Position numbers and translations under genes: made by a program
Assembly (NCBI GenBank): GCA_016209145.1
Contig: JACQWT010000186.1
Span: 1-34,236 of the forward strand
DNA from: Deltaproteobacteria bacterium
GTDB taxonomy: Bacteria; Myxococcota_A; Polyangia; Polyangiales; Polyangiaceae
Reading direction: 5' to 3'
DNA length: 34,236 bases
Part shown: in pieces, positions 9,050 to 17,158 of the stretch
Numbering within the stretch: position 1 is the stretch's first letter
Layout: every line of letters starts with the position of its first letter
Notes under the pieces: model-generated
Database searches by the model: none
What the model was told of the DNA's origin: nothing
Seen by the model: only the letters and a program-made list of their open reading frames with translations

Positions 9050-9160
9050 GGCGGCGCAATTCCCGGAGCTGGCCGGCCGTGCAGGAAAACGTCGCCGGAT
9101 CGCCCCCAGGCGAGGCGGCACGACATCGCGGAGGGGAGGAGGCCCCACTCGTCCCGCCAG

Positions 9161-9234
9161 CGCGCCCGGAGCGATTCGAACGCTCGACCGTCGGCTTAGA
9201 AGGCCGCTGCTCTATCCGGCTGAGCTACGGGCGC
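9161..9234 (-). tRNA. tRNA-Arg (anticodon UCU)
   Basis: A complete cloverleaf on the minus strand. The acceptor stem GCGCCCG pairs with CGGGCGC, with G as discriminator. The D-arm is GCTC/GAGC and the T-arm GAGCG/CGCTC with loop TTCGAAT. The anticodon loop CTTCTAA gives UCU, reading AGA. The anticodon stem has one terminal G-A mismatch (27-43). CCA is not encoded. Its first 41-42 nt are duplicated at 15678-15719, so this copy is a junction product: the 3' half is chromosomal and the 5' half and upstream sequence come from the integrated island. Confidence 0.95.
9193..9234. other. attL: 42-bp direct repeat, copy 1
   Basis: The sequence from GGCTTAGAAGGCC to CTACGGGCGC is identical over 42 bp to 15678-15719. 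Flanking bases differ on both sides (9192 C versus 15677 A; 9235 A versus 15720 C). It covers the tRNA from its 5' end through the anticodon loop. The bases just outside (9235-9258) are strikingly AT-rich for this genome, as at recombinase core or arm sites. Confidence 0.85.
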
Positions 9235-9616
9235 AAGATATTGATATTGCAAGATTTGTAGCGGCGGCGTCCACTTCGGCCGGCCGGCACGCACCGAGGT
9301 GCGGCGCGAGGTGCAGGCGCCAGCGGCCTGCGTCGTCGGCGGCTGCGCGATGCGTGGCGCGCCGACGTTCCAGCCACGGGCCGGCCAGCTCGGCGAGGGT
9401 CGGCACGCTCTTCGGGTCGCGGGGCAGGCCGGCGCGTCCCGCCGCGATGTCGCCGGTGATCTTGGCCCGGACTTGCTCGGCCAGCTCGCGAGTCTCGAAG
9501 CCCCCCGCGTAGCGCCGGCGCCCGTGCTCCCGCCAGGACACCGCCCAGTTGTCCGGGCCGCGCCGGTAGACGCTGCCCTGGCCATGCGCTCGCCGGTGTT
9601 GGCGCCGCGCCATCAT
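9212..9616 (-). pseudogene. Tyrosine-recombinase (phage integrase) N-terminal fragment
   Basis: The first 125 or so codons encode an integrase arm-binding domain (GSVYRRGPDNWAVSWREHGR, then GGFETRELAEQVRAKITGD) and the start of the core-binding domain (PTLAELAGPWLERR, HLAPHLGACRPAEVDAA). The frame then enters AT-rich junction sequence and stops inside the tRNA D-loop. The catalytic domain with the R-H-R-Y residues is absent, so it cannot recombine DNA. The start Met overlaps the stop of the upstream RHH gene (ATGA), so the pair was one operon. Because the fragment is co-directional with tRNA-Arg, its transcript would run straight into the tRNA. Confidence 0.8.
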
Positions 9617-10794: not shown

Positions 10795-10998
10795 TCAGCG
10801 TGTGCGACGGGCTCTGGGTTTGGTCACCACAGGGCGCTCAAGCGCCCCCAGGACTTCCGAAACCACTCGTTCGGCTTGGTCCTCGATCAGCGTCTGCTGC
10901 TCGGGCCGGCGGCGCGTCGCCGGTACTTCCGGCATGAACTCGCGCATGACGCATTCGGCGTTGCAGAACGTTCGTTCGGGATGTGCACGGCGGGTCAT
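10795..10998 (-). CDS. Small protein (67 aa) downstream of Ntn-hydrolase
   Basis: The start ATG (10998) lies 3 nt after the TGA of the Ntn-hydrolase gene, so the two are almost certainly one translational unit. The protein has a CNAEC pair (Cys-x3-Cys) near residue 12, a probable helix (LIEDQAERVVSEVLGALE) and a basic tail (KPRARRTR). I do not recognise a family. Possible roles are an accessory subunit, adaptor or inhibitor of the hydrolase. That is inferred only from the spacing. Confidence 0.5.
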   Translation of the reverse strand: MTRRAHPERTFCNAECVMREFMPEVPATRRRPEQQTLIEDQAERVVSEVLGALERPVVTKPRARRTR

Positions 10999-11001
10999 GA
11001 T

Positions 11002-12291
11002 TCACACTCGGTAGTGGCGCGCAATCTGGCGCGGATTGAGATCTGGCTCAAAGTAGTGTTTCCGTCGAACCCACACAAAGCCGTCGCCCTTCGTGATGAC
11101 GGCCACGTCGATGGGCCCGCCAACCGTCTCTTCCTCGGCAGCCACTCGTCGCCTGAACGACGTCAGGTTGACGAGCGCCTCTGCCATCGCCCCCAACTCG
11201 CTCTTCGGAAGGAAGGCCACCATACTCGTCACGGGGGCCGAGAACTCCTCGTGCCGAAAGCGTTCGAGAACGTCCCACAGCGGGGGGAGCGCGCCTTGCA
11301 CATACTGGCGCATGCGCCGGACCATCGTTGACATGCGCTGCTTCGAGAGCCCCGGAAGCTGCGTCACCGCCTTGTTCGCCAGTTCCGCAACGAGCCCAGC
11401 GACAACCTGCTTGGTGAGCTCCTCCAGCCGCGGGTCGATGCCCTCCATGAAGGAGTACACCATCTCGGACTGGGCGAAGGGACGGATGATCGCCGCTTTG
11501 CTGTGCGAAATTGCGTCGCGGCCTCGTTCGGCCCAGCGCAACTTGCCGGCGACGACATCCCCGACCACCAGCTCCACCATCGAAGGGAAATGCTCGGCCA
11601 CTCCAAAGCCCGCCATGACCAAACCCGTGGCGTCGGGCATGAACACGGCGCGGCGCAAACGGTCGAACACGAGATCGGCAAGCTGCTCATAGCCGGCCCG
11701 CCCAAGCGGGGTATTGGCGAGCGCTTCCCTCAGGGCCCGCAGAACCGCCGGCCTGTAGCGTCTTCGGAGCGCGGCCGTCCCGAGAGGCCGCGCCAACAGC
11801 TTGCCCCTCCGGTTGTCCCGGCGAAGCTGCTCGATTTCGGACCCAAGAAGCCGGGCCAACAATCGCCGCGCCTCGCTCTCCGAGAGCTGCCCGTGTTCGT
11901 CCATGTACTGCCGGAGCTTCCGTTCGACGCTCGCCCTAAGGGCGCCCACGGCAAGCCCAACGTGCCTGAGCACGGCCGCTTCCTGGACCTCTGGCGGGAA
12001 GAGGGCGCTCCGCCGCTCGACAAAGGCGAGGAAGTCTCGCGCGAAGTCGCGCACCGTGCGGAGAGCCCGGACGTTCTGCTGGCGGTACTCCTTGATGAGC
12101 ATTTCCCACGGCGCGTCCTGGATCGCCGTGCCCCCACAGAGCATGGCAGCGACAGGTGCCGTCTCGCTCAAGAGGAACAGCTTGTCGGCGGAGTTGTAGA
12201 TCTTGGTGCCAGCGTGGCCGCCGATCGTCAGCGCGCTGTCGGTCGCCAGCGCCACCCCCAGCGCATTCATGAGGCAAACCTCTGCGGTCAT
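11002..12291 (-). CDS. Proteasome/HslV-like Ntn-hydrolase with long C-terminal extension
   Basis: A 429-aa protein. After Met removal the N-terminus reads TAEVCLMNALGVALATDSA: Thr1 would be the nucleophile, Asp17 lines up with the proteasome/HslV Asp17, and Lys29 or Lys36 in TKIYNSADKLFLL with Lys33. VAAMLCGGTA resembles the next core strand. The remaining 350 residues are helical and not like HslV (about 175 aa), for example DFARDFLAFVERRSALFPPE and VVAGLVAELANKAVTQLPG. The start at 12291 is chosen because it exposes Thr and the upstream open frame (to 13137) has no protein-like sequence. No HslU or ATPase gene is nearby. It is followed 3 nt later by a 67-aa gene. Peptidase or amidohydrolase activity is inferred from the N-terminus only. 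Confidence 0.65.
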   Translation of the reverse strand: MTAEVCLMNALGVALATDSALTIGGHAGTKIYNSADKLFLLSETAPVAAMLCGGTAIQDAPWEMLIKEYRQQNVRALRTVRDFARDFLAFVERRSALFPPEVQEAAVLRHVGLAVGALRASVERKLRQYMDEHGQLSESEARRLLARLLGSEIEQLRRDNRRGKLLARPLGTAALRRRYRPAVLRALREALANTPLGRAGYEQLADLVFDRLRRAVFMPDATGLVMAGFGVAEHFPSMVELVVGDVVAGKLRWAERGRDAISHSKAAIIRPFAQSEMVYSFMEGIDPRLEELTKQVVAGLVAELANKAVTQLPGLSKQRMSTMVRRMRQYVQGALPPLWDVLERFRHEEFSAPVTSMVAFLPKSELGAMAEALVNLTSFRRRVAAEEETVGGPIDVAVITKGDGFVWVRRKHYFEPDLNPRQIARHYRV

Positions 12292-13815: not shown

Positions 13816-14199
13816 CTACGCCGCCGATGGACCGCGACGCCGGGGAGCGGCGCGGAGCAGTCGCGACACGTCCACGTCGAGCCCCTCGCACAGCCGCGCG
13901 ACCGTGGTGAGCGTGGCGTTCACGTCGGCGGCCTCCACTTGCTGCCAGAGGCGCGTGGACATCTCGCAGCGGTGCGCGGCCTCTTCCTGCGTCCAGCCCC
14001 TTGCGATCCGGAGACGACGCGCGTTGAACGCGAGACGCTCTTGAAGCGCAGCGTACGCAGGGCTTCCGTACTGCGCCTCCCGTTCCGTCCGCCCCTCCGT
14101 GCCAACGTGGGTGAGACAGTCGCCCCCCCGGCGCCGTAGCCCTCGCGGGACCCCACGCAGGAAAGCCCCAGAGCCACGGCCGCCGCCTCGGCGATGCAC
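13816..14199 (-). CDS. XRE-family HTH regulator (5' end uncertain)
   Basis: The C-terminal 65 residues are a clear Cro/CI-type helix-turn-helix: [38 protein letters not shown], then [20 protein letters not shown]. The 127-aa frame begins at ATG 14199, but its first 30 residues ([15 protein letters not shown]) are the other-frame shadow of a retropepsin-like gene, and no other start codon occurs before the HTH. The natural 5' end therefore seems to have been lost when the two genes were joined by a deletion. If expressed from 14199, the DNA-binding domain would be intact. Confidence 0.6.
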
Positions 14200-14480
14200 G
14201 TGGATGTCGCTCCAGTGTCGATCAGGAGGAACCCGGTCACAGGGAGCGGCACCGGCTGCCGATCCGCAAGGAGCGCCGCTTCATGGGCGCCAGGTACTCG
14301 CCATTCGCCGATGAGTACCGGACCGAGCGCGCGCAACAGGCCCTTCTCGAACCTACGCTCGAAAAAGGTCGGCACACGTGCTGCATTGCCGTGCGGAACA
14401 GCATGCTGCTGGCTGCCGCTGCGCCCCCGTCGCGCGCGCGTCCGCGCTCGCAGCCGTCGGGCGGCCTCGCCCTTGGCCAC
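13920..14480 (-). pseudogene. Retropepsin-like aspartic protease, truncated
   Basis: From the GTG at 14480 the frame encodes PTFFERRFEKGLLRALGPVL, then [20 protein letters not shown] and [12 protein letters not shown]. The LLIDTGAT segment is the catalytic D-T-G-A motif of retroviral-type aspartic proteases, which act as homodimers. Homologous homology-like sequence ends near 14100, after which the frame only shadows the XRE gene in another register, so the C-terminal half with the flap and the second hydrophobic-hydrophobic-Gly motif is missing. It starts 1 nt after the stop of the 78-aa gene, the usual partner arrangement as I recall it. Confidence 0.55.
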
Positions 14481-14481
14481 G

Positions 14482-14718
14482 TCACATCACTCCGAGTTGC
14501 CATGAGAGCGACGTGGTGACGGGGAGACGAACCACCTCGCCCACAAGGAAGACGCCGCGCAGCCCGTAGCGCGCAACGCCGGCAGCGTAGGCTGCGCCGA
14601 ACTGCCTGAAGAACTCGACGGGCTGGCCATCCTTGAACAGCACGAACTCGCCCGGGTGCTCGCCCAGGAACTGATCGAGCTGTCCCTCGAAGGCCCTCTG
14701 CTCCTCCTCGATCGTCAC
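14482..14718 (-). CDS. Conserved hypothetical, partner of retropepsin-like gene
   Basis: A 78-aa protein from a GTG at 14718, with GAGGAGG about 10 nt upstream. It reads TIEEEQRAFEGQLDQFLGEH, PGEFVLFKDGQPVEFFRQFG, AAYAAGVARYGLRGVFLVGEV. The acidic N-terminal helix followed by F-V-L-F-K-D-G is typical of a small soluble protein that I recall lying directly upstream of aspartic-protease genes in many bacteria. Function is unknown. The longer frame to 14799 is rejected because its extra 27 residues lack a ribosome-binding site and homologous look. Confidence 0.65.
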   Translation of the reverse strand: MTIEEEQRAFEGQLDQFLGEHPGEFVLFKDGQPVEFFRQFGAAYAAGVARYGLRGVFLVGEVVRLPVTTSLSWQLGVM

Positions 14719-14847
14719 AACCGCGACACCTCCTCGGGCAGCATAGCAGGGTTCCAGGCCTGCCGGCGAGCCTGCGCATCCGCACAGGGGTACACACATC
14801 GCTACTGCCGGCGCCCGAAGCCCATTCCCGCCGGGCCAGGCACGCAG

Positions 14848-15677: not shown

Positions 15678-15719
15678 GGCTTAGAAGGCCGCTGCTCTAT
15701 CCGGCTGAGCTACGGGCGC
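15678..15719. other. attR: 42-bp direct repeat, copy 2 (displaced tRNA 5' half)
   Basis: Identical to 9193-9234. On the minus strand it is nucleotides 1-42 of tRNA-Arg, followed not by the rest of the tRNA but by island sequence. Upstream of this copy (15720-15780) the chromosome keeps what looks like the original tRNA promoter region, including a TACACT -10 candidate (minus strand, 15750-15755) about 30 nt before the tRNA 5' end. Confidence 0.85.
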
Positions 15720-15874
15720 CTGCGGCCGGCTCGTGCCGGCGCGAGCGCCAGTGTAGCAGCCCCTTCGGCGGCGCCGGTAGCGGCAGGTGGGCGTCCCGGC
15801 GCTTGCGCCTACCGCTTCTGCTATGATGATGCCCTGTCGCGCCCGTGGGCGCCCCTTGGCCCGAGGAGATCCAG

Positions 15875-17158
15875 ATGAACAGGCAGACTCTTCCGTGGCT
15901 GGCCGCGGCGTTGCTCGTCGCAGCGTCCGCCGCCTACTCGCAGCACGCGGCCGCCTTGCCCGCGACGATAACCCAGCAGGGCCGCCTCTACGATGCCAAG
16001 AGCGGGCAGCCGGTCGAAGGCGAGATCGAGGTCGCCTTCGCCCTCTACGACAACCAGATCGCCCCGACGCCGGTGTGGATCGAGATCCAGAAGGTGGCTT
16101 TCGAGGACGGGTACTTCAGCGCGCAGCTCGGCTCGGTCATGAAGTTCCAGGACAACACCTTCGACGGCTCGCCGCGCTACCTGGGCATCAGCGTGGGCGA
16201 CGATCCGGAGATGACGCCGCGCGCCGTGGTCGGCAGCGTGCCCTACGCTCTAGTGGCCGAGAACGCCGTCGGCGACATCACGCCGAGCTCCGTGACCATC
16301 GCGGACTACGGCGAGGTCATCGACAGCAAGGGCAAGTGGGTCGGCGACCCCACGGGGCTCGTGGGCCCGGCCGGGCCGAAGGGCGACAAGGGCGAGACGG
16401 GCCAGGTGGGCCCGCCGGGGCCGCAGGGCCCGCAGGGGCTCACGGGGCCGCAGGGCCTGACCGGGCCGCAGGGGCCGGTGGGCCCGCAGGGACCGCAAGG
16501 CCCCGTCGGGGCGATGGGGCCTTCCGGCCCCAAGGGCGACCCGGGCCCGCAGGGGCCGAAGGGCGACCCCGGAGCGGCGGGGCCGGCCGGCCCGCAGGGT
16601 GCCCAGGGCCCGCAGGGCCCGCAGGGCCCGGCCGGGACGTTCAGCGGCACGTTCAAGGGCAACACGACCTTCGAGGGCGACATGAGCGTCGTCGGCAACG
16701 CCGTGGTGCAGGGCGAGCTCTTGCGCAAGGTGCAGCGCAAGGTCGTCTACAGCTACGACTCCACCACGAACGGCGTGGTCGGCTCGCGTTCTTTCGACTT
16801 CACCAAGCAGCGCAACGACACGGCCGTGCGCATCCAGTGGTACGACAACTTCCGCTGCGGCGGCACCAGCGTCGCCTGCCGCTGGGACGTGCGCATCGAC
16901 GGCCAGGACTGCGGCACTCCGGGGCCCGTGCGGGCAGACATGTACAACGAGCCCCTCACCAACCACCACTACCCGATGACCATCGTCGGCTACTGCTCGA
17001 AGCTCAAGGACGGCACGCCCGTCGGCGCAGGCGCACACAAGCTGACCATCGTCGAAGGTGCTTCGCCAGCACACACCCATGGCGGGCCCGTGCTCGGCTG
17101 GAACTGGGCCAACAACGACGGCACTTGGACCGTCATCGAGGTCGAGGAGGTGTTCTAG
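15875..17158 (+). CDS. Secreted collagen-like protein
   Basis: A 427-aa protein from ATG 15875, preceded by GAGGAG. A signal peptide (about residues 5-28) leads to a domain of about 135 residues beginning [20 protein letters not shown] and containing [17 protein letters not shown], a module common in myxobacterial surface proteins with collagen tails. Thirty uninterrupted Gly-X-Y triplets follow (16364-16633), rich in GPQ and GPK/GDP. A C-terminal beta-rich domain of about 170 residues holds four cysteines (FRCGG, SVACRW, GQDCG, GYCS). Such proteins trimerise through the collagen rod and act as extracellular fibres or adhesins. The start at 15845 in the same frame is rejected because it places the ribosome-binding site inside the gene. 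Confidence 0.88.

Follow-up and report, generated by a model that had tools for sequence, protein, structure and literature searches.

What could a proteasome-like threonine hydrolase do in a mobile island of a deltaproteobacterial genome, with a protein of 67 aa encoded directly behind it? The locus that raises this question lies in a stretch of 34,236 nucleotides, the whole of which is called the window here. It is part of an island of ~6.5 kb that contains both genes and is flanked by a perfect 42-bp tRNA-Arg repeat. The integration target is the tRNA-Arg (TCT) gene found by ARAGORN at 9160–9234 (minus strand). One att-like copy of the direct repeat lies inside this gene (9193–9234) and the other, a displaced 5' half of tRNA-Arg, at 15678–15719, which indicates that a ~6.5-kb element entered the tRNA gene at its anticodon-loop half. 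The first-pass annotation, made from the letters alone, had rightly placed the locus in a tRNA island, whose integrase is apparently present as an N-terminal fragment only. This probable tyrosine integrase fragment of 134 aa (9212–9616, minus strand) was recognized by eye and has no Pfam match, and its stop codon falls within the tRNA repeat. Since the integrase appears reduced to a fragment ending in the tRNA, self-excision of the island is improbable. The island also carries a helix-turn-helix regulator of the XRE type (13816–14199, minus strand; Pfam HTH_31, E=1.8e-10) and several ORFs without assignment. The GC content of the enzyme gene region is 65–69%, against about 70–75% for most of its surroundings, as expected for imported DNA. 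Two other ORFs, of 574 and 711 aa, overlap the enzyme gene and were rejected as spurious frames of GC-rich DNA (~70% GC), because the family alignment fixes the enzyme start at 12291.

The enzyme gene (11002–12291, minus strand, ATG start) is present as a single copy in the source genome and encodes a protein of 429 aa, which its reading frame, AlphaFold2 (AF2) model, fold matches in the PDB and match to the phage protein family phrog_5990 identify as a proteasome-like Ntn (threonine) hydrolase. Its N-terminus, translated from 12291 to 11002 on the minus strand, is MTAEVCLMNALGVALATDSALTIGGHAGTKIYNSADKLF, with Thr directly after Met and the T-x15-D spacing noticed at first reading, the mature Asp17 standing 16 residues past Thr1. 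Homologues were collected by tblastn and pattern searches; they are full-length, with about 26–37% identity, and, with 80 of 154 IMG/VR contigs kept, they form 56 groups at 80% identity; the family alignment has 50 rows. M1, T2, D18 and K37 are invariant in these 50 non-redundant homologues, so that none lacks Thr after Met, and most residues of ETVGGPIDV are likewise invariant. Because the mean column identity across the alignment is just 39%, this invariance of the active site is not due to chance. The codons concerned lie on the minus strand at 12286–12288 (Thr2, the mature Thr1 and predicted nucleophile), 12238–12240 (Asp18, the mature Asp17, predicted to be catalytic) and 12181–12183 (Lys37, or K36 in the mature protein, the equivalent of proteasome Lys33). 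The segment ETVGGPIDVA (11101–11130, minus strand) is the final Ntn core motif and corresponds to SGGMIDVAVI of proteasome beta.

A profile search against PDB sequences places T2 on Thr1 and K37 on Lys33 of the Thermoplasma proteasome beta subunit (E 0.0014), and in the same alignment VGGPIDVAVISKGDGFV pairs with SGGMIDVAVITRKDGYV. The lysine helper had been sought in TKIYNSADKLF. The segment was the right one, and the catalytic residue is the K of NSAD-K-LF, which falls exactly on K33 of GKKLFQI; the K of TKIYN was rejected, since the profile alignment puts K37 on K33. The position of the proteasome Ser129 is apparently A or Q in the enzyme family, judging by sequence alignment only, and for that reason peptidase activity is not certain; the Thr/Asp/Lys set is intact, and catalysis is a prediction. 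Scans of both window genes gave no Pfam, NCBIfam or PADLOC family match, and the Pfam Proteasome family (PF00227) matches 3 of the 50 homologues, with a best E of 2.4e-4. One RefSeq protein of the family, WP_231531568.1 (E. coli locus L100, 7786–9189), has an overlong annotated N-terminus; its family start MTAEI is internal, and the nucleophile is hidden because the annotated start lies ahead of it.

Structure prediction had been set as the test of the Ntn assignment, and its outcome agrees with sequence and profile in supporting a proteasome-like Ntn hydrolase. The AF2 model, built from the 50-row alignment (pLDDT 90.5, pTM 0.86), shows a complete proteasome-type Ntn fold. Strands S1–S4 are followed by H1 (62–72), H2 (80–93) and a helical insertion at about 100–213 (window 11653–11994, minus strand). 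Then come strands within 222–273, H3 (275–283), a second helical insertion at about 287–359 (11215–11433, minus strand), H4 (363–384), strands within 394–409 and a C-terminal helix. The separate helical region of 350 residues described by the first-pass annotation is thus mistaken: both insertions are interleaved into one Ntn fold, which is completed at the C-terminal end by the conserved strands 394–409. Foldseek against the PDB returns proteasome or Anbu chains at all ranks from 1 to 32, with probabilities up to 1.00 and E-values of ~1e-3, which we consider modest because the insertions break the alignment.

The sequence family is already known, as is clear from phrog_5990 and from its fit to a published cluster of proteasome homologues, so that the early expectation of an undescribed system does not hold for the enzyme. 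All 50 tested homologues match phrog_5990 (PHROGs v4), and for the window protein the match is full-length (E=2e-89); that entry is of unknown function, with neither a fold nor a partner. Fuchs, Alva and Lupas (2021) described 22 clusters of proteasome homologues, among them PMI-4 (Proteasome homolog with Multiple Insertions 4; reference sequence e.g. HDY66466.1), which has insertions after H1/H2 and between H3/H4 and a broad distribution, and is the sole PMI cluster marked for phages (PMC8665760). The enzyme resembles PMI-4 in both insertion sites, in having no propeptide and in its occurrence in many bacterial phyla and some archaea. PMI-3 has both insertions too, but the distribution of the enzyme over many phyla and phages sets it apart. 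PMI-5 and PMI-6 are set apart by the S3–S4 site, where the enzyme has no large insertion and the model shows only short loops between the strands of residues 12–53. Connectase is likewise a proteasome-fold Thr enzyme with added helices and no propeptide; it differs in that its helices are inserted between S3 and S4 and in being confined to methanogens. The described insertion sites, as located in the model, and the distribution make it very probable that the window protein is a member of PMI-4.

With 20S proteasome beta, HslV, Anbu and BPH the enzyme shares the Ntn fold, the equivalents of Thr1, Asp17 and Lys33 and the GG.IDV motif, and it differs from them in about 185 extra helical residues, a small partner gene, a phage distribution, the lack of an unfoldase gene and the probable loss of the Ser129 position. 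HslV, Anbu and BPH are compact, and HslV has HslU beside it, whereas the enzyme has long insertions and, as the first-pass annotation had correctly stated, no ATPase or unfoldase gene beside it in the window or in the annotated loci. For the proteasome homologues of the 2021 survey, no co-occurring gene or suggestive genomic context was reported, their functions were left open, and it was proposed that insertions of this kind could block double-ring assembly (PMC8665760). The enzyme, in contrast to PMI-4 as published, has a partner gene and a cargo context. In the open-licence literature we found no published activity of the enzyme family and no later functional work on it. What appears to be new is therefore the enzyme–partner unit and not the enzyme family.

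The enzyme is spread over phages, satellites and hosts in Pseudomonadota, Bacillota and Bacteroidota, a planctomycete, an archaeal MAG and the window's own phylum. Full-length homologues occur in Streptococcus satellite phages, in phages of Providencia, Stenotrophomonas and Porphyromonas, on plasmids of Rhizobium, Mesorhizobium, Ruegeria, Pantoea and Enterococcus, and in a planctomycete and a Thermoplasmata (archaeal) MAG; viral contigs of IMG/VR with the enzyme number 154. Its distribution is sporadic and the pair is rare in chromosomes: the enzyme was found in 22 of 5426 E. coli genomes, and in the window's class 2 of 318 genomes, one of them the source genome, have a full-length copy, the three other matches there being shorter relatives. 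It is absent from all 14 control genomes. This pattern bears on whether the enzyme could be a general protease for protein quality control or stress that mobile elements carry incidentally. The relationship to the proteasome would fit such a role, since 20S proteasomes without a cap are able to degrade unfolded proteins, as PMC8665760 discusses; however, the sporadic occurrence, the absence from the controls, the link with a variable partner and with cargo sites of phages, and the lack of an unfoldase neighbour make it highly unlikely. Shorter relatives of ~275–290 aa, which keep both ends of the protein and miss most of its middle, occur in related genomes at loci L115 and L116 (genomes G746 and G034, respectively). 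They share the N-terminal and C-terminal family motifs (GGPIDIA.ITK.EGF.WVRRKHY), lack the long insertions, and by their sequences are candidates for other PMI clusters that bridge proteasomes and the enzyme family.

The small gene reported 3 nt downstream of the enzyme is real in position and length: it runs from 10998 to 10795 on the minus strand, in one frame with the enzyme gene, and encodes 67 aa. Its product is basic (pI 10.4), with the motif RTFCNAECVMREFMP and a C-terminal amphipathic helix. In GC-rich DNA open frames are abundant, and the window partner gives E=16, not significant, against a profile of six other partners, so that the frame might be due to chance and the enzyme act alone. 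This is hardly credible in view of its occurrence across the family. A same-strand ORF of 40–80 aa whose start lies between -40 and +30 nt relative to the enzyme stop is found directly behind the enzyme in 46 of 50 non-redundant loci (92%), against 64 of 236 control genes (27%), which were other long genes of the same loci. The four exceptions are L010, with an overlapping partner, L011, with one of 35 aa, L090, with one of 34 aa as in the similar E. coli locus L100, and L029, with none; counting the partners of L010, L011 and L090 would be a post hoc relaxation of the criterion. Partners are annotated independently as CDS in several phages (L004, L005, L008 and L009) and are also present, unannotated, behind the Rhizobium, Ruegeria and E. 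coli copies. For the E. coli prophage enzyme WP_000123148.1, the ORF downstream has 49 aa (L098, 10308–10457). The window partner scores 51 against the partner at L002, the locus of the closest enzyme relative, a value that none of 2000 shuffles reaches; the comparison with the partner of L114, from the same taxonomic family, is not significant (score reached in 105 of 2000 shuffles). By eye, these three partners have in common [KR]xFx[SN], then [FY][IM]P, and the C-terminal amphipathic helix. Purifying selection is seen in the few partner pairs that are measurable, e.g., dN 0.10 against dS 1.0 for L050/L005, as dN/dS is saturated for most. That a proteasome-type Ntn fold is encoded here together with a genuine small partner gene is close to certain.

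Enzyme and partner distances co-vary (Mantel r=0.37, reached by 0 of 2000 permutations), a correlation of which base composition and shared phylogeny may account for part. As judged by their sequences, the partners are too divergent for a single family profile; most are basic and hydrophilic. A fused enzyme–partner AlphaFold model, built via readthrough of the in-frame TGA between the two genes, leaves the partner undocked, with pLDDT of 40–45 over the motif and about 80 in one helix; the placement of the partner is thus of low confidence, and binding is conjectural. It could be argued that the partner, being small, variable and always adjacent, is the substrate of the enzyme, which would mature or ligate it as a connectase-like transpeptidase to give an effector or signal. 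Connectase shows that ligation is possible for this fold (PMC8665760), and the gamma-proteobacterial partners have in common an aromatic C-terminus and a motif of the LREWQ.xFNP type. Across the partners, however, there is no common cleavage or recognition sequence, nor does the partner have secretion features, and such processing is decidedly unlikely. We suggest tentatively that the partner inhibits or regulates the enzyme and is not its substrate.

Temperate phages, satellites and plasmids carry the pair as cargo, typically as a cassette that stands alone between two gaps. It stands at the very end of the Streptococcus satellite Javan103, where an HTH gene precedes the enzyme, and at the end of prophage Javan85. 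In a Providencia phage it lies between a methylase and a holin, in a Stenotrophomonas phage opposite to the lysis genes, and in E. coli antisense between Q and a methyltransferase/holin. In another E. coli prophage (L100), the pair is found in the immunity region, where the gene immediately ahead of it codes for a repressor-like HTH protein, and a comparable immunity-region slot is occupied by rexAB in lambda. RexAB and other prophage exclusion systems are two-gene cassettes in lysogen-expressed slots of temperate phages; the likeness to the pair is one of position only, with no relation in sequence or fold. Transcriptional repressors and regulators are the commonest neighbour type of the enzyme. 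This, together with the HTH genes ahead of the enzyme in L100 and in the Streptococcus satellite and its copies by Q or lysis genes, would fit a regulator of the element's own life cycle, in which the element or its helper phage supplies the target of the protease, be it a repressor, an antirepressor or a late protein, with the partner as adaptor and no part in defence. However, the pair is found in unrelated elements with different regulators, on plasmids and in structural gene clusters, and slots beside repressors are classic cargo slots as well; we regard such a regulator as unlikely.

The neighbourhood survey that the first-pass annotation had proposed bore out the short gene behind the enzyme. 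Known defence genes are not generally enriched near the enzyme (PADLOC, 114 neighbours of mostly viral loci), and no curated PADLOC defence model matches enzyme or partner. Some copies do have defence surroundings. In genome G300, a divergent relative with an internal TAG lies near HmaB/HmaC and two PADLOC (PDC) candidate defence families, and on Rhizobium plasmids the enzyme has an E1-like/multiubiquitin/ClpP cluster and a PD-T4-9_A-like gene in its vicinity. At loci L101, L102 and L104 of these plasmids, an HTH gene, a small gene and the PD-T4-9_A-like protein stand beside a cluster of multiubiquitin, ThiF/E1, DUF6527 and ClpP-like genes that adjoins the enzyme; this neighbourhood is possibly a plasmid defence island.

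The best reading, which we put forward with reserve but as a serious contender, is that the pair is a protease with its regulator, expressed in the lysogen and acting against competing mobile elements in defence or exclusion. In its favour, the pair occupies lysogen-transcribed positions, runs antisense to late genes, has moved repeatedly from one type of element to another and includes a variable partner; the defence surroundings in G300 and the Rhizobium plasmids and the sporadic occurrence add support. It is weakened in that no PADLOC model covers the pair, defence genes are not enriched in the viral contigs, the partner is undocked, and the chromosomal copy that comes closest to a defence-island case (G300) is divergent and contains an internal TAG. 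Judged by context, a defence or toxin–antitoxin role is plausible, the toxin–antitoxin likeness being that of a two-gene organisation only.

According to this defence model, methionine aminopeptidase would remove Met and expose Thr1 without a propeptide, and the insertions would prevent the usual double ring and might act as a sensor or lid. The partner, made from the same transcript, would bind the enzyme and either keep it inactive or direct it to its target, with the pair being expressed in the lysogen. On interference by another phage or element, the enzyme would be freed or aimed and would cut a phage or host protein, so that the resident element would be protected by superinfection exclusion or abortive infection. 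It is rather doubtful whether this amounts to a new class of immunity or exclusion system that works by proteolysis; such a class would consist of a stand-alone proteasome-fold Thr protease with no ring partner or ATPase, checked or aimed by a fast-evolving co-encoded protein of ~35–71 aa, and carried through bacteria and archaea on phages, satellites and plasmids. With the conserved partner and the setting as phage cargo, the function of proteasome homologues that was left open in 2021 can for the first time be approached concretely; lysogen expression, an activity that depends on Thr1 and an identified regulator or substrate are predicted from them. If the defence reading is true, proteasome-type proteases without the usual ring and unfoldase join the bacterial immune toolkit.

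Some minor features were observed by the way around the locus. Within 14240–14847 (minus strand), a short ORF (~14485–14733) resembles DUF5678-type proteins by eye, with no Pfam match. Downstream of it, a retropepsin-like aspartic protease motif was read by eye in a frame that is apparently broken, and it appears to be the remnant of a second protease in the island. Just beyond the island, a plus-strand gene at 15845–17158 encodes a protein with collagen-like GPQGPQG repeats.
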